From IMG/VR virus record IMGVR_UViG_3300047994_000097, positions 1 through 24,563 of that record: a stretch of DNA of 24,563 nt. One strand, given 5' to 3'. Shown piece by piece: positions 1,277 to 7,953 of this stretch. The notes under the pieces are model-generated. The model saw only the letters and a list, made by a program, of their open reading frames with translations. It was not told the origin of the DNA and searched no databases. Origin of the DNA: a virus. Position 1 is the first letter of the stretch, and each line of letters begins with the position of its first letter. The position numbers and the translations under genes are program-made.

Positions 1277-1471
1277 ATGACCGCCAAAGCAGTCTACGGG
1301 ATTCCGATAGGAGCCTCGTTCAAGTCGGAGGGTGAGGTACTCACCGTTCTCGAGTTCATCACTCCGGCGAACCTCACACAACCCTGGCGTGCCCTGGTCA
1401 AGTCGAACGAGATCGTCGACCACCAGACCGTCGAGGTGAAGGACTTGCAGAAGATGGAGAGGATCGAATGA
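1277..1471 (+). CDS. Small hypothetical protein, first gene of nucleotide operon
   Basis: A 64-aa protein I do not recognise. It contains a run reading VLTVLEFITPANLTQPWRALV that resembles a small beta-strand-rich domain, and a charged C-terminus. No Cys pairs, signal peptide or membrane segment is visible. There is no Shine-Dalgarno sequence; ATG 1277 lies seven bases after the -10 hexamer, so translation is predicted to be leaderless. Its 3' end overlaps the start of the kinase gene by ATGA, which indicates translational coupling. Confidence 0.7.
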   Translation: MTAKAVYGIPIGASFKSEGEVLTVLEFITPANLTQPWRALVKSNEIVDHQTVEVKDLQKMERIE

Positions 1472-2010
1472 TCATCGTCGAAGGACCGGATGGGGCTGGC
1501 AAGACCACGCTCATCGCACAGTTGCGGGAGCGATGGCCTGACCTCGAAGTCGCACCGCGTGTCGTCTCTCAGCAGGCAGTCGAGATGACCGACTTGCAGG
1601 TGTGGGTCAATGACAACCTCGCCAAGGGGTTCGAGTACCAGATCTACGACCGGCACCGCCTCATCAGCGAATTCGTCTACGGCCCCGTACTGCGCAACGT
1701 CATGCGCCCGGGCTTCACAAGCCTCGGCTGGGTCTACCACTCGCTGCGTCGGTTCTACGACGAGGTCGACCCGGTGATCATCTACTGCCTGCCTCCGCTC
1801 GAGGCCGTGCAGAACAATGTCTTCGATGATCCTGACAATGAGGTCGTCGTAGACCACATCGAGGGCATTTACACCGCATATCTCATGCGCGCATCCATCG
1901 ACTCGGTGATGCGTCCCGACAAGACTCTCATCTGGAACTACCAGGTGGGACACGACCTCGCGGTCATCGATCCACTCATCAACTACGCAAAGGGCAGGGC
2001 AGAACTATGA
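1468..2010 (+). CDS. Thymidylate-kinase-like P-loop (d)NMP kinase
   Basis: A 180-aa protein with a classic N-terminal Walker A, GPDGAGKTT (residues 6-14), and a DRHRLISE segment (D61-R62-H63) that corresponds to the DR(Y/H) nucleotide-binding motif of thymidylate kinases. The family transfers phosphate from ATP to dTMP or a related dNMP in the cytoplasm. The length is slightly short for a bacterial Tmk (about 200-215 aa). Start ATG 1468 overlaps the upstream stop; the 3' end overlaps the pyrophosphatase gene. In this operon, beside two thymidylate-synthase-like genes, it could phosphorylate dTMP or a modified dNMP, as T4 gp1 does. Specificity cannot be read from sequence. Confidence 0.8.
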   Translation: MIIVEGPDGAGKTTLIAQLRERWPDLEVAPRVVSQQAVEMTDLQVWVNDNLAKGFEYQIYDRHRLISEFVYGPVLRNVMRPGFTSLGWVYHSLRRFYDEVDPVIIYCLPPLEAVQNNVFDDPDNEVVVDHIEGIYTAYLMRASIDSVMRPDKTLIWNYQVGHDLAVIDPLINYAKGRAEL

Positions 2011-2588
2011 GCCTCCAGTACTTTCTCAACGAGCAGAGCCGACTTCAGCGGGTGATGCAGGAGAAGTCCAACCAGGACCACCCCACTGACCTCTATGAGG
2101 AACTCGGCAACACGACCGATGGGCCCGAGGAGCAGGAAGCTGCCGCGGCGATCACCCGCTTCATGCAGTGGAACGACAAGGCCCTCATCCACGAGATCGT
2201 CGAGATGGAAGCCGAGACTGGCTGGAAGCCCTGGGCCAAGGGTGCCTTCCTCAATCTCGAAGCGGCACGAGGTGAGTGGATCGACATGTTCCACTTCATG
2301 CTGAACGGGGCGCTCCTGCTCGGTCTCGATGAGTCGGAGATTCGCCGGCGCTACGATGCGAAGCATGCGAAGAACGAGGCTCGCCAGCATGCGAGCTACG
2401 ATGGGGTCAGCACCAAGTGCTTCGGCTGCGGTCGTGCCCTCGATGACGACGCGGTTATCGCCGATGGCTGCTATGTCAAGGGTTGGTCGGATGGCGGGGA
2501 TGACGCTCGCCGCATCAAGCCCGGTTTCGAGGCACACGCTGCGAAGCTCGAGAAGTACTGCGCCGTCGAGAAGCGGTACGCCGCATGA
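2007..2588 (+). CDS. All-alpha NTP pyrophosphatase (dUTPase/dCTPase/MazG-like) with Cys-rich C-terminus
   Basis: A 193-aa protein with the metal-binding signature of the all-alpha NTP-PPase superfamily: E63-x2-E66 on one helix and E90-x2-D93 (EWID) on the next, 23 residues apart. This superfamily contains dimeric dUTPases, dCTPases and MazG. Such enzymes hydrolyse a (d)NTP to the monophosphate plus pyrophosphate. The C-terminal third carries CFGCGRALDDD, a zinc-ribbon-like CxxC knuckle with a further Cys near the end. It overlaps both neighbours by ATGA. Beside a dNMP kinase and thymidylate-synthase homologues it would supply dUMP or dCMP while removing the unmodified triphosphate. The exact substrate is not readable from sequence. 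Confidence 0.8.
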   Translation: MSLQYFLNEQSRLQRVMQEKSNQDHPTDLYEELGNTTDGPEEQEAAAAITRFMQWNDKALIHEIVEMEAETGWKPWAKGAFLNLEAARGEWIDMFHFMLNGALLLGLDESEIRRRYDAKHAKNEARQHASYDGVSTKCFGCGRALDDDAVIADGCYVKGWSDGGDDARRIKPGFEAHAAKLEKYCAVEKRYAA

Positions 2589-3613
2589 GGCACTTCCAGT
2601 CCGCCACGATGACGGACATGTACCAGGACCTCACCGACGCGCTGATCCATGGCACCGAGGAAACCCTCGACCTCATCAGCAGCGTCGATGTCCAGATCCA
2701 CGATGTCGTCGCCGAGGCCGACAGTATGGTGTGGGACTTCGACCTCAAGGACGCCTGGCTGACGGGGTCTCGCTGGTCGATGATGGTCAAGCAATATCTC
2801 GACCCGGCAGAACTGGAGAACTTCATTGGACTCGCCACGTCGCGCATCGGCCTCAAGAACCGAGGCGTCGCTGTCCTCCGCACCAACAAGGTCAAGCCGA
2901 GGGGAGGTGCCTCCACCGGTCACACCAACAAGCAGACCCGAACATGGGGAAGCTGCATGCTTAACATCAGCTATAAAGCCATCCCTGTACCGCAAATTAC
3001 TCTGTACAGCCGAACTTCCTACCTCGGCTACATCGGAGCCCTCGATATTGGAATCGCCTACAAGGTCGGTGAGTACCTTGCTCGAGAGCTTGGCACAGAC
3101 GTAAGTAAGTTCCGATTCGTCTGGTACAACCAGGCGGTGCAGTGGCACAACTTTAAGTCGCTCGCATTCATGCTGAACCATGTCGATGAGGGCAAGCGAG
3201 AGCATTACCGTCGCCTGCTGATCGCACCGAGTGGTCATTTGACTGTCGCTGAGAAGCGCGAGGTTCTCTCCCACGATGCCATCAAGCTGTCGCGCAAGTG
3301 GCTGCAAAAGGTGATTCGGGAGGACGCTACGGGACGAACCTATGGCGACTTCTCATACAACACCTTCCGTCGTATCGTTCGGCGATTCCACACCGAAGTC
3401 TACGGGCTCGAGCACGCAAAGACCTTCGAGGGCTGGTCGCACTACAAGCAGGGAGAACGCACCGGCGAGCAGAAAGAGTACTTCAAAGCGTATGGGGCGC
3501 TTCCGTCGGTTGATATCCATGGCCTCGACTTTGGTAAAATTGGCATGCCAGCCAATCGCAAGTACGGCGACCCCTTTGTCGGGGGCGAAGAAGAAGACGA
3601 GGATGACGAATGA
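2585..3613 (+). CDS. Thymidylate-synthase-superfamily protein, divergent (first of a tandem pair)
   Basis: A 342-aa protein. The core around C124 (WGSCMLN) aligns with the thymidylate-synthase (TS) nucleophile region. R143 sits 19 residues later in LYSR (TS: LYQR, 20 residues after the Cys). D154 lies 11 residues after R143, exactly where TS has the Asn that reads the pyrimidine ring; T4 dCMP hydroxymethylase has Asp there. The later TS HxY pair appears as VQW, so substrate contacts are altered. The C-terminus is a highly acidic tail. The N-terminal 100 residues match nothing I know. It overlaps both neighbours by ATGA. It may be a pyrimidine C5-modifying enzyme or a non-catalytic partner of the next gene product. 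Family assignment rests on motif spacing read by eye. Confidence 0.65.
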   Translation: MRHFQSATMTDMYQDLTDALIHGTEETLDLISSVDVQIHDVVAEADSMVWDFDLKDAWLTGSRWSMMVKQYLDPAELENFIGLATSRIGLKNRGVAVLRTNKVKPRGGASTGHTNKQTRTWGSCMLNISYKAIPVPQITLYSRTSYLGYIGALDIGIAYKVGEYLARELGTDVSKFRFVWYNQAVQWHNFKSLAFMLNHVDEGKREHYRRLLIAPSGHLTVAEKREVLSHDAIKLSRKWLQKVIREDATGRTYGDFSYNTFRRIVRRFHTEVYGLEHAKTFEGWSHYKQGERTGEQKEYFKAYGALPSVDIHGLDFGKIGMPANRKYGDPFVGGEEEDEDDE

Positions 3614-4509
3614 CACTTCGGATATATCGCACGGGCAACGCTGAGGGCTTCGAGACTCAGTTCCTCGCCATGCGACACGACCTGTACAACCAGGAGCCGA
3701 TCACACGGGGCGAGTGGCAGTCTCAGCAGATCAGCATGCCCATGCTCGAGATGCTGCACGTCGTGATGGAGATGCCGATGCCGACGATGCAGACCGTCGC
3801 CGCAGAGGTTACCGGGGCTCGCATGCCCTGGGCCGAGGATCACTTCCTCGAGCGAGTCGGGGGCGAACCGCTGAACCCCAGCCCGAGCGAACAGTGGTGG
3901 CCTTTCCGCAAGAAGTCGGCCGATGGCGACACGAACAAGGATCACAAGAGCGAGGGTGCAGCATTCTCGCACACGTACCCCGAACGCATGTGGCCGAAGA
4001 AAGCAGCTCCCGACGAGGGACTCAGTGATGCGGGTTCGGGCATCCACCATGGTATCCGATTCGCTTACGGCGATCTGCGCGATGTTGTCAAGCAGCTCCA
4101 CAAGGCGCCGCTGACTCGTCAGGCATACCTCCCAATCTGGTTCCCCGAGGATACGGGCGCAGTGCACGGTAAGCGGGTTCCTTGCACGCTGGGGTACCAT
4201 TTCATCATCACTCCCGAGGGCAAGCTCGACGTGAGCTACTTCATGCGGTCGACCGATCTGCTGCGGCACTTCCAGGACGACGTCTACATGGCGATCCGTC
4301 TGGCACAGTGGGTTGCCGACGAGTTCAACCTGCTGTCGATGACTGCTGCTGCTAAAGAGTACAGCGAGACCGGGGCATACACCTACCGCGAGGATCAGGA
4401 CAAGCTCGAGGTCGGCACGCTGGTCTTCCACACCGCCAACATGCACATCTTCGAGGGCGACAAGCCCATGATCGACTTCTGGAAAGCGAACAACCGGAGC
4501 TGGTTCTGA
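3610..4509 (+). CDS. Thymidylate synthase / dCMP hydroxymethylase-like enzyme
   Basis: A 299-aa protein and the more canonical TS-fold member of the tandem pair. It has the nucleophile in PC192TLGYHF, R213 in MRSTD (TS: QRSCD) and, 11 residues after the Arg, D224 in FQDDVYMA where TS has Asn. A late HTANMHIF segment (H279, F281) matches the TS HTLGDAHIY deoxyribose-binding pair. TS and dCMP hydroxymethylase transfer a one-carbon unit from methylene-tetrahydrofolate to C5 of dUMP or dCMP; the Asn-to-Asp change is the known dCMP-preferring substitution of T4 gp42. It therefore probably hydroxymethylates dCMP, or is a TS with altered specificity. It overlaps the preceding gene by ATGA and the next by one base. 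Confidence 0.75.
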   Translation: MTLRIYRTGNAEGFETQFLAMRHDLYNQEPITRGEWQSQQISMPMLEMLHVVMEMPMPTMQTVAAEVTGARMPWAEDHFLERVGGEPLNPSPSEQWWPFRKKSADGDTNKDHKSEGAAFSHTYPERMWPKKAAPDEGLSDAGSGIHHGIRFAYGDLRDVVKQLHKAPLTRQAYLPIWFPEDTGAVHGKRVPCTLGYHFIITPEGKLDVSYFMRSTDLLRHFQDDVYMAIRLAQWVADEFNLLSMTAAAKEYSETGAYTYREDQDKLEVGTLVFHTANMHIFEGDKPMIDFWKANNRSWF

Positions 4510-4658
4510 TGCCTCTCTATAACAAGGTCATCACAGTCTACCGCGAGGATGTCGGTCACGCCATCATCGACGTCGGCTTCAAGTGGAAGTGGCAGGCCAT
4601 CCTCTTTCATATGCTTCTCAACAAAAGCCGCGCTCATGTCGGCAATCGGAGATTCTGA
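4509..4658 (+). CDS. Small hypothetical protein (49 aa)
   Basis: ATG 4509 shares its A with the upstream TGA stop, and its own TGA at 4656-4658 overlaps the next ATG. The protein begins MPLYNKVITVYRED and contains an IIDVGFKWKWQAILF stretch that is amphipathic rather than a clear membrane helix. I recognise no domain. Support is the perfect overlap architecture on both sides within an operon. Confidence 0.6.
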   Translation: MPLYNKVITVYREDVGHAIIDVGFKWKWQAILFHMLLNKSRAHVGNRRF

Positions 4659-4807
4659 TGCGAACCATCGAGCTCATCTGGGAGGTCGACACGCCGGCGC
4701 TCGGCAGGTCATGGTTCGACGATGGGTCGGGACTGCGACTGTTCGAGGTCATGCCCGACGGCTCGCGAGAGCGAGTGATAGTGAATGTGAAACAAGTGAG
4801 GGTGTAA
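4658..4807 (+). CDS. Small hypothetical protein (49 aa)
   Basis: It starts at ATG 4658, overlapping the previous stop, and ends with TAA at 4805-4807, overlapping the deaminase ATG. The protein starts MRTIELIWEVDTPALG and ends VIVNVKQVRV, suggesting a small beta-rich fold. No motif is recognised. The chained one-base overlaps argue that it is translated in the operon. Confidence 0.6.
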   Translation: MRTIELIWEVDTPALGRSWFDDGSGLRLFEVMPDGSRERVIVNVKQVRV

Positions 4808-5400
4808 TGGAAAGGATCAGTCGTGAACAGATGCTCATCGAGGTGGCTCAGGTGGTTGCCCGTCGTGGCACTTGCTCTCGTGCTCAGGTGGGGGTGGTAT
4901 TCGCTCGCGAGGGTCGCATCCTGGCTACCGGGTACAACGGTGCTCCTCCTGGCATTGACCACTGTGTACATGAGTCCATCTACATTCCGGATCAGTGGGA
5001 GATTGATCGGGGTGCTACTTACGAGGTACCTCAGTGGCTGGCGACTGCGGATATCGGCTATCGCAACCAGGGCCATGGAGATTTTATACAGTTGGGCCGG
5101 CATTACTTCACCGACGGGGCGAGCATCACAATCAAGAACGGCCCCAACCAAACCGCCCCTGGATGCACAGTTGTCGAACATTCCGAACGGAATGCCATCG
5201 CGTACGCAGCAAGAGAGGGCATTCGGCTCGGTGGTTCTGACGCTTTCTGTACCCACGCACCCTGTCTCGATTGCGCACGAGCACTTCTCTCAACAGGCAT
5301 CGCGTCGCTCACGTTCCTGACTCCATACCGCATCACCAAGGGTGTGGAATTGCTGGTCTCCAAAGGCATCCGGGTAATTGACCTCGGCAATCCGGTTTGA
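4807..5400 (+). CDS. Deoxycytidylate (dCMP) deaminase
   Basis: A 197-aa zinc-dependent cytidine-deaminase-fold enzyme. The catalytic motif H125-S-E127 is followed by P-C153-x2-C156, giving the zinc ligands and the proton-shuttling Glu. The N-terminal segment ATGYNGAPPGIDHC is typical of phage and bacterial dCMP deaminases. It converts dCMP to dUMP, feeding thymidylate synthesis. A stretch of about 45 residues rich in aromatic and Gly residues lies between the N-terminal strand and the HxE motif; dCMP deaminases carry insertions there that often hold an allosteric site. ATG 4807 overlaps the preceding stop. It is the last gene of the operon; the polymerase promoter lies in its 3' end. Confidence 0.88.
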   Translation: MERISREQMLIEVAQVVARRGTCSRAQVGVVFAREGRILATGYNGAPPGIDHCVHESIYIPDQWEIDRGATYEVPQWLATADIGYRNQGHGDFIQLGRHYFTDGASITIKNGPNQTAPGCTVVEHSERNAIAYAAREGIRLGGSDAFCTHAPCLDCARALLSTGIASLTFLTPYRITKGVELLVSKGIRVIDLGNPV

Positions 5401-5412: not shown

Positions 5413-7953
5413 GTGATCTTTACTGACGAACCATGCGCCCTATGCGGCAAGCATTCCGAGCGCTCCTTCGCCACTGGCCCTGCCGATGCCAAGATCGTCG
5501 TGGTGACGAACCGCAAATCGAGCGGGGCATTCCAGAAGAACCTCGAGCAGCAGTTGACCGAGGTCGGCATCGACACCAGCGAGGTGTACTTCACCCCAGT
5601 GATCAAGTGCTCCGAGTTCGATATCTCGCTGTCGACTGGGCAACTGAAGGCACACGCTGCGGAGTTCTTGCAGCAGGAACTCTCGGCGATGAAGCCCAAG
5701 CATATTCTCATGCTGGGCAACGAGGCGCTCGTCACGGTAGCGGGTAAGTCGGGCATCACCAAATACAAGGGCAAATTCCTCGACACGCCGTATGGTGAGG
5801 CGATGGGCACTGTATCGCCCTCGTCGGTCAACCGCAACCCTGGTCAGAAGCCGTCATACATGGCTGACCTCAGGCTCTTCTCCAATAAGGTGAGGGGCCT
5901 TTCTTCTGGCGTACCGGACCCCAAGTACATCGTTGCCGATACGAAGGAAAACCTCCGTAAGGTGCTGAAGATCCTCGACCTGACCGACGAGATCTATATC
6001 GACATCGAGACAAACCGAGGCGAATACTACGAGCCCGCAGCCGCGATGGTAACTCTCGCCGCCACATGCATCGTGCGCGATACCTTCGGGGCACCGACGA
6101 AGCGGGCAGTCTTCGCTGTCCCACTCTTCCACCCTGAGTCCCCATGGCGATCAAAGTGGCGCGAGATTCTCAGGCTGCTCGGTCGACACTGCAAGAACAT
6201 CCGCAAGGTCGTCGCGCACAACGCAAGCTTCGACTGCAAGTGGTTGATCTGGTGCGGCATGGAGCTGTACCCCACCTTCGATACCATGCTTGCTGTTCAT
6301 CTGCTGAACGAGAACGTGCTCAAGGGTCTCAAGCCGCAGGCGATGAGCCGGCTTGGTGTGGAGGCATGGGGCATCGATACTGGCGACTTGCTGCAGAAGC
6401 CGCTCGCCGAGGTGCTGCATTACAACGTTCTCGATACCTGGTACATGTACTTCATCAAGCAGCAGATCGCTGACGAGCTGAAGGAGCAACCGCGCCTGGC
6501 ACGCATCTTCAAGTTCGTCACCATGCCGGCACAACGAGACCTGATCGATAGTGAGATTCGCGGCGCATGGATCGATGTGAAGCGACTCAACGAACGCAAG
6601 CCCATTGCTGAGCGCAATCTGTTGGAGGTCGAGCAGCGCATCCGTGAGGCTGCTGAGCTGCCGTCCCCCGATAGCGATGAGTGGCCCCACACCATCAAGC
6701 AGATGAAGACCATGAACAAGCGCATCAACATGGTCGAGAATTTCAATGCCTCGCACTTCGCTCGCTGGATGCTCTTCGAATGGTGCGAACTGCCGATCAC
6801 CGAACGGGGCAAGGACAAGCCCGATGGTTCGCCAGGCGACCCTAGCATGGCCGAGGATGTGCTGAAACATCTCGCTTCAATGCACCCGGTCGTACCAGCG
6901 ATGCTCGATCGTGTGACCAAGCAGAAGCACCTCAGCAGCTTCTTCAACCCTTACTCGGAGTTGTACGATGAGGATCACCGAATCCACACCACATTCAAGC
7001 TCTCGGGCACTGTTACTGGTCGTCTTTCTTCAGGCAAAGCCGATGCGGATAAGGTTTCGGGTAGCCGAGGCAAGCTACGAGGGGTCAATCTTCAGCAGGT
7101 CCCTCGTGACCCATTCATCCGCGGTCTTTTTGGTGCTCCGCCTGGCTGGACGTTCGTCGAGGCTGACTTCTCTCAGATCGAGCTGAGGATCGCCGCGTAT
7201 CTCGCTGATGAAACCACCATGAAGCATATCTATGCGACCGGTGGCGACATTCACCTCTCGACTGCGGCGCGAGTGACGGGGCTGCCCGAATCTCAGGTTA
7301 CGAAGGAGATTCGCAAGGTAGTTGGCAAGCCGGTCAACTTCGGGTTCCTCTATGGCATGGGCTGGCGCAAGTTCATCGAGACCGCGTTCAACAGCTATGG
7401 CTCGATCTTCACCGAGATGGAAGCCCAGGCAGCACGCATGGCTTACTTCGATCTGTATCCGAAGCTGCTTCCCTGGCACGCCAAGATGCGTCGACTGGCG
7501 AACGAATATGGTCGCGTCGTTAGCCCGCTGGGCCGCGTCCGTCACCTCCCTGACATCTACTCACCTGACAAGGGGGTGCGCATGGAAGCCGAACGGCAGG
7601 CAATCAACTCGCCAGTGCAGGGCTTCGGTAGCGACCTCGCCGTCATCGCCATGATCGAGATAAACCGTCGACTGCGCGAGCTCGGGTGGGATCAGTTCGC
7701 TCATTGCCTCGGTCTGGTGCATGACGCCATCAACTTCGAGATTCGCGATGACTACGTCGCTCGGGTGATCCCGATTATCAAGGACTGCATGGAAGACATG
7801 GCGCACGTCGAGCGCCTCTTCGGCACGGTGGTCGACATTCCGATCATCGCTGATGTCTCGGTGGGGCAGCACTGGGGCGACAAGATCGAGCTCACCCCCG
7901 AGCAGGTCTACGACTTCGACCTCAAGTACAAGTTTGCAAAGGCGGCAAAATGA
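5413..7953 (+). CDS. DNA polymerase I with N-terminal degenerate uracil-DNA-glycosylase-like domain
   Basis: An 846-aa family A polymerase. Residues 1 to about 155 resemble a family 4 uracil-DNA glycosylase: CxxC at C8/C11, a third Cys at C66 after VIK, a KPKHILMLGNEA strand, and SPS (135-137) where active enzymes have HP(S/A). The fourth Fe-S Cys and catalytic His appear lost. The 3'-5' exonuclease has DxE (D197, E199), NASFD (D274) and YNVLD (Y337, D341). Polymerase motif A is DFSQIELR (D585), motif B includes K639 and NFGFLYG, and motif C is VHDAI (D771) with Ala replacing the usual Glu. No 5' nuclease domain is present. GTG 5413 is chosen because it is the frame's first start and lies seven bases after the -10. 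Confidence 0.92.
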   Translation: MIFTDEPCALCGKHSERSFATGPADAKIVVVTNRKSSGAFQKNLEQQLTEVGIDTSEVYFTPVIKCSEFDISLSTGQLKAHAAEFLQQELSAMKPKHILMLGNEALVTVAGKSGITKYKGKFLDTPYGEAMGTVSPSSVNRNPGQKPSYMADLRLFSNKVRGLSSGVPDPKYIVADTKENLRKVLKILDLTDEIYIDIETNRGEYYEPAAAMVTLAATCIVRDTFGAPTKRAVFAVPLFHPESPWRSKWREILRLLGRHCKNIRKVVAHNASFDCKWLIWCGMELYPTFDTMLAVHLLNENVLKGLKPQAMSRLGVEAWGIDTGDLLQKPLAEVLHYNVLDTWYMYFIKQQIADELKEQPRLARIFKFVTMPAQRDLIDSEIRGAWIDVKRLNERKPIAERNLLEVEQRIREAAELPSPDSDEWPHTIKQMKTMNKRINMVENFNASHFARWMLFEWCELPITERGKDKPDGSPGDPSMAEDVLKHLASMHPVVPAMLDRVTKQKHLSSFFNPYSELYDEDHRIHTTFKLSGTVTGRLSSGKADADKVSGSRGKLRGVNLQQVPRDPFIRGLFGAPPGWTFVEADFSQIELRIAAYLADETTMKHIYATGGDIHLSTAARVTGLPESQVTKEIRKVVGKPVNFGFLYGMGWRKFIETAFNSYGSIFTEMEAQAARMAYFDLYPKLLPWHAKMRRLANEYGRVVSPLGRVRHLPDIYSPDKGVRMEAERQAINSPVQGFGSDLAVIAMIEINRRLRELGWDQFAHCLGLVHDAINFEIRDDYVARVIPIIKDCMEDMAHVERLFGTVVDIPIIADVSVGQHWGDKIELTPEQVYDFDLKYKFAKAAK

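Follow-up and report, generated by a model that had tools for sequence, protein, structure and literature searches.

A phage nucleotide-precursor operon with two divergent thymidylate synthase homologues predicted to act in cytosine modification

Introduction

Enzymes of the thymidylate synthase (TS) superfamily that carry an Asp at the position that reads the pyrimidine ring perform at least three different reactions, namely, the tetrahydrofolate-dependent hydroxymethylation by T4 gp42, the FAD-dependent 5-hydroxylation by AfhB of RB69 and HY126, and the methylation by the N229D mutant of TS. The Protein Data Bank (PDB) entries 9iqc and 9iqu, the titles of which name an FAD-dependent monooxygenase, the dCMP hydroxylase AfhB, show a protein to which RB69 ORF048 is almost identical. 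TS superfamily members that act as 5-hodCMP synthases have been described in Mosigvirus (PMC13390438), and the MetaGPA study reported that TS genes from modified-cytosine contigs carry Asp177 and a changed residue at position 147 (PMC8670742). In T4, gp56 is annotated as the enzyme that removes dCTP and dUTP.

Here we analyze a stretch of viral DNA of 24,563 nucleotides (IMG/VR record IMGVR_UViG_3300047994_000097, positions 1 to 24,563), referred to below as the window. A preliminary description, made from the sequence alone, had proposed that positions 1468 to 5400 harbor a T4-like precursor-modification operon with two Asp-type TS homologues, here termed TS1 and TS2.

Results

Gene content of the locus

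The five proposed genes are all present between 1468 and 5400 and run in one direction on the plus strand, and only the start of the last one had to be amended. They encode a dNMP kinase, a dUTPase/dCTPase, TS1, TS2, and a dCMP deaminase, and a family A DNA polymerase (DNA polymerase I; 5413-7953, plus strand; phrog_17, 1.6e-134) comes next. The first four genes are joined by 4-base stop/start overlaps (2007/2010, 2585/2588, and 3610/3613).

The product of the first gene (1468-2010) is a P-loop dNMP kinase of the thymidylate kinase-like type (phrog_761, 1.2e-14). It had been matched to T4 gp1, which holds for the role and not for the family: in Pfam and PHROGs profile searches, T4 gp1 matches PF21448 and phrog_139, whereas the window kinase matched neither. 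Its likeness to gp1 is best described as a functional analogy only. The second gene (2007-2588) encodes an all-alpha dUTPase/dCTPase-type pyrophosphohydrolase (dUTPase_2, PF08761, 2e-8; phrog_18650, 3e-69), and its proposed correspondence to T4 gp56 proved to be one of homology, with phrog_18650 scoring gp56 at 1.2e-9 and blastp giving 5e-8. The C-terminal extension of the window protein contains a CxxC motif (CFGCG), a possible metal site that T4 gp56 lacks. The deaminase (PF00383, 2e-18; phrog_174, 4e-40) was correctly identified and ends at 5400; with its HSE and PCxxC zinc motifs, it probably starts near 4807 rather than at 4549. Between TS2 and the deaminase lies a small open reading frame (4583-4807, plus strand) that matches no known family, and phage Shrew has a small gene at the same position.

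Elsewhere, the window encodes a Cas4-like exonuclease, a Sak4-like annealing protein, an SSB-like protein, a VRR-Nuc endonuclease, and a primase/helicase; no glucosyltransferase was seen within it. The closest sequenced phages, at about 70% DNA identity, are Curtobacterium phage Shrew and Microbacterium phages Huwbert and Triscuit.

TS2 is an Asp-type member of the TS superfamily

TS2 (3610-4509, plus strand) matched PF00303 (8e-6; 25.7 bits versus a cut-off of 24.3) and phrog_160 (2e-30), a family that also contains T4 gp42 and RB69 ORF048. This profile match and the presence of the catalytic residues Tyr94, Arg126, Cys146, Arg166, and His207 (E. coli TS numbering) place the protein, a predicted dCMP-modifying enzyme, in the TS superfamily. 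All five residues were kept in 78/78 TS2 homologues, the folate-contact Asp169 was present in 77 of them, and the ring-reading position 177 was Asp in every one; position 147 was Thr or Ser, Thr being the residue of T4 gp42. The window protein carries C192, R213, D216, D224, and H279, of which R213 is the substrate Arg and D224, 11 residues on, occupies position 177. The Asp 11 residues after the substrate Arg, which had been claimed for both TS genes, was confirmed in TS2 (R213/D224) and in TS1 (R143/D154), and its invariance (D224 in 78/78 TS2 sequences; D154 in 55/55 and 80/80 TS1 sequences) argues against chance. Asn at the ring-reading position, the finding that the preliminary description had named as speaking against its proposal, was absent from both proteins on profile alignment.

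Compared with the PDB, a TS2 profile of 66 homologues matched the CMP hydroxymethylase MilA (8e-9), AfhB (2.6e-7), and T4 dCMP hydroxymethylase (3.6e-5), and the N229D mutant of Lactobacillus casei TS (with dCMP) was also among the best matches. The same profile aligned with a TS/gp42/AfhB profile at an E value of 1.8e-21, and in structure alignments MilA was the top match of TS2 (tied), with AfhB among the top matches. The TS2 sequence stops soon after the last core strand, without the extended C-terminal tail by which canonical TS shields the hydride-transfer step. Annotators of sequenced phages label TS2 "thymidylate synthase"; judged from its residues, it is a gp42-like enzyme belonging to a separate clade.

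Residues that distinguish gp42-type from hydroxylase-type enzymes

We compared 14 hydroxylase-type, 54 gp42-type, and 78 TS2 sequences at three positions (E. coli numbering), of which 169 and 80 are folate contacts of TS and 209 a ribose contact. Position 169 was Asn in 14/14 hydroxylase-type sequences, Asp in 54/54 gp42-type sequences, and Asp in all but one of the TS2 sequences. Position 80 was Tyr in 14/14, Trp in 54/54, and Trp in 78/78, respectively, the alignment around Trp80 being less certain than that around Asp169. Position 209 was Phe in 14/14, Tyr in 54/54, and Phe in 76/78. TS2 thus matches the gp42 type at the folate-contact positions, where the AfhB-type signature Asn169 plus Tyr80 is absent, and the AfhB type at the ribose-contact position. 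A grouping of TS2 with the gp42-type sequences was not found in the tree, which placed TS2 in its own clade, apart from the gp42 and AfhB types and nearer to neither.

This residue pattern favors, and does not prove, folate-dependent hydroxymethylation by TS2. A T4-like precursor operon for a modified pyrimidine, as initially proposed, is supported and can be narrowed to cytosine, but the Asp alone does not specify 5-hydroxymethylcytosine (5hmC), since Asp-type enzymes of the superfamily perform the three reactions named above.

TS1 is an extremely diverged paralogue

TS1 (2585-3613, plus strand) belongs over its full length to phrog_13667 (2e-109), a family of unknown function in PHROGs, and its homologues in sequenced phages are annotated as "hypothetical protein." Direct sequence searches of TS1 against Pfam, NCBIfam, and solved structures gave no TS match; weak matches to xylanase (E value of 0.1) were discarded as chance. 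The AlphaFold model of TS1 (pLDDT of 92.4) has the fold of the TS superfamily, and the matches listed for it by Foldseek/VIA-align were TS-superfamily chains. AfhB (9iqu/9iqc; VIA Z of 15.9 over 185 residues) and MilA (15.6) were tied as the closest, followed by canonical TS at about 12.5, with alignments over about 180 residues. The C-terminal part of TS1, about 140 residues, is helical. Both phrog_13667 and phrog_34294, to which we return below, are assigned here to the TS fold.

Profile comparisons of TS1 with TS2 and with TS/gp42/AfhB gave the same register (C124 with C146, R143 with R166, and D154 with N177); the single-comparison E values of 0.002 to 0.003 are modest alone, and the register is the one predicted by motif and fold. 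The comparison between TS1 and TS2 gave no match when the profiles contained close relatives only and succeeded once remote members were added. The iterated TS1 profile reached remote proteins encoded at the same position (Serbin_051, Strzyga_00470, and PMBT14 gp48), and TS2 proteins came next at an E value of 0.002. In Serbin, Strzyga, and L044, the remote partner encoded upstream of TS2 matches phrog_34294, which has no function in PHROGs.

Tyr71, Cys124, Arg143, and Asp154 were invariant in 55/55 TS1 homologues, very remote ones included. In a further set, Tyr71, Cys124, and Asp154 were each found in 80/80 sequences; the seed patterns of that scan contained R143, Y146, and Q186, which were excluded as evidence there. 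From its place before the helix preceding the Arg126 strand, Tyr71 is probably the equivalent of Tyr94. The folate-contact Asp169 is replaced in TS1 by Tyr146 (Glu in remote members), and the ribose contacts His207 and Tyr209 by Gln186 and His188. TS1 was therefore assigned to the superfamily on its fold and register, and was not classed as a TS or a hydroxymethylase. The cross-subunit phosphate Arg (E. coli R126), invariant in TS2, is not conserved in TS1. Both proteins are thus Asp-type TS relatives, as had been claimed, but they are not equivalent. TS1 ends in a strongly acidic tail (GGEEEDEDDE; window positions 3560-3613) that is common to close relatives and missing from remote ones.

Pairing of TS1 and TS2 and phylogenetic distribution

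TS2 lay directly downstream of TS1 in each of the 81 TS1-seeded contigs with enough sequence, whereas about 30 TS2-seeded contigs, many of them from large phages, contained no recognizable TS1. TS1 thus appears to need TS2, and not vice versa. No TS1-TS2 fusions were found among the loci examined. One phage (Phage DP SC_2_H4_2017, L104) contains two TS1-like reading frames close together, at 4964 and 6817, beside a TS2-like one at 7783. At least 85 sequenced phage records carry the module; they come from phages of Gordonia, Mycobacterium, Streptomyces, Microbacterium, and Curtobacterium and include Muddy, a therapeutic phage that has been used in patients. More distant versions were seen in phages of Serratia, Brevundimonas, and Pseudomonas. 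A TS1 search of bacterial genomes gave two matches, both in metagenome-assembled bins. We found no base analysis in the literature searched on Gordonia or Mycobacterium phages or Muddy.

Of eight complete relatives, four encode a separate ThyA or ThyX, so that TS1 and TS2 are not needed for dTMP in these four. In Huwbert, gene 68 (L096:11353-12156) is a third, canonical Asn-type ThyA directly after TS2, which is therefore not the source of dTMP there.

Candidate tailoring genes

A match to family 2 glycosyltransferases (GT2) was absent from 7/8 complete relatives, and carbamoyltransferases of the kinds searched were absent from 8/8. Without tailoring by TS1 or another gene product, bare 5hmC would therefore be exposed to modification-dependent restriction. 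No TS1-like genes were found beside TS2 in the large-phage contigs, which instead carry metallophosphoesterases and asparagine synthase-like and glycosyltransferase-like genes at this place. A conserved calcineurin-like metallophosphoesterase precedes TS2 in six TS1-less contigs (L053, L064, L070, L071, L082, and L083). An asparagine synthase/glutamine amidotransferase-like protein just upstream of TS2 (L050:4671-6023 and L043) may catalyze an amide-forming tailoring step, and the reading frame after TS2 in L051 (6742-8280), with FkbM methyltransferase and GT34-like domains, is another possible tailoring enzyme for modified cytosine.

Discussion

We consider it highly probable, from the genes and residues described, that the virion DNA contains a cytosine modified at C5 in some way, and we regard its derivation from 5-hydroxymethyl-dCMP as probable. 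The scheme that we favor, with reasonable though not high confidence, is T4-like: the operon would make a C5-modified deoxycytidine nucleotide before replication, with 5-hydroxymethyl-dCMP as the product of TS2 and TS1 working with TS2. The dUTPase/dCTPase would lower dCTP and dUTP levels and yield dCMP, the predicted TS2 substrate under the Asp177 rule. In TS2, D224 would read the cytosine ring and C192 attack C6, and a one-carbon unit would be moved from methylene-tetrahydrofolate to C5 with release of 5-hydroxymethyl-dCMP, a product suggested by the retention of the folate residues. The kinase would then phosphorylate this nucleotide, DNA polymerase I would incorporate the modified nucleotide into phage DNA, and the dCMP deaminase would maintain the dUMP/dTMP supply. 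TS1, as the paralogue of TS2, may act on the TS2 product or form a mixed complex with TS2, because it keeps Y71, C124, R143, and D154 but neither the folate Asp nor the ribose contacts. These two roles appear about equally likely, and a pure scaffold less so. More tentatively, TS1 and TS2 might constitute a two-protein TS-fold machine in which TS1 performs a second, undescribed reaction at C5 or contributes to a mixed active site, giving rise to a new cytosine modification in a large group of phages, a therapeutic one among them.

Phe209 of TS2 (76/78), shared with all 14 flavin hydroxylase-type sequences, and the separate clade speak against 5hmC. TS2, or TS1, might be a dCMP 5-hydroxylase that uses flavin, as AfhB/RB69 ORF048 does, with 5-hydroxycytosine or a derivative in the DNA. 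AfhB is the top or tied top structural match of TS1 and among the top ones of TS2, the folate Asp is missing from TS1, and 5-hodCMP synthases of this superfamily exist in Mosigvirus. However, TS2 retains Asp169 and Trp80, neither of which is present in any hydroxylase-type sequence, and does not cluster with these sequences in the tree, and the Z scores of TS1 to AfhB and MilA are tied; we consider this reading unlikely. Alternatively, TS2 might methylate dCMP, and the 5-methylcytosine of the virion DNA would then originate at the nucleotide level, as it does in phage Xp12. This would require no sugar transferase, and according to Liu and Santi (1992), as cited in PMC8670742, N229D alone is enough to convert L. 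casei TS to a dCMP methylase. The mutant ranks among the best matches of TS2 in the PDB, but the absence of the canonical C-terminal tail and the gp42-like Thr/Ser, instead of His, at position 147 make a methylase an improbable solution as well.

That the gene set merely raises dTMP and dNTP pools in a phage with normal bases seems very unlikely: a kinase, a dUTPase, a dCMP deaminase, and a TS also make up the usual dTMP pathway, in keeping with the annotation of TS2, yet the ring-reading Asp is invariant in both proteins and several relatives encode a separate canonical ThyA or ThyX. TS1 as a non-catalytic scaffold or regulatory subunit, compatible with any activity of TS2, would fit its constant position beside TS2, the gene overlap in the window, and the unconserved cross-subunit Arg, but a scaffold would not need the four residues that are invariant in 55/55 homologues, and TS2 is found without TS1 in other phages; we hold such a role to be rather doubtful.

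Modification of cytosine decides which restriction and CRISPR defenses act on a phage. If the favored scheme is right, many cultured phages without annotated DNA modification carry one, cytosine-type TS enzymes can occur as a pair of paralogues, and a protein family without function is provided with a fold and, probably, a role in catalysis.

Among the described systems, T4 resembles the window operon in its gp56-family dCTPase/dUTPase and its dCMP deaminase, and T4 gp42 resembles TS2 in the catalytic set, Asp177, Thr147, and the folate-contact residues Asp169 and Trp80. In contrast to T4, the operon has no gp1-family kinase, no glucosyltransferase was seen in the window, and there is an extra paralogue, TS1; TS2 itself differs from gp42 in its clade, Phe209, a His at position 173, and an identity of 11% in the structure alignment. 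AfhB of HY126 and RB69 ORF048 (9iqc and 9iqu) share the TS fold, Asp177, and Phe209 with TS2, but AfhB-type enzymes have Asn169 and Tyr80 where TS2 retains the folate residues. AfhB also ranks first, alone or in a tie, among the solved structures matched to TS1, which differs from it in Tyr or Glu at position 169 and Gln and His in place of His207 and Tyr209. MilA, the CMP 5-hydroxymethylase of mildiomycin biosynthesis, is, as predicted for TS2, a cytosine-specific TS-superfamily enzyme and is the best profile match of TS2; unlike TS2, it comes from a Streptomyces antibiotic cluster and acts on CMP, and its ribo-specific Ala176 is Ser in 74/78 TS2 sequences.
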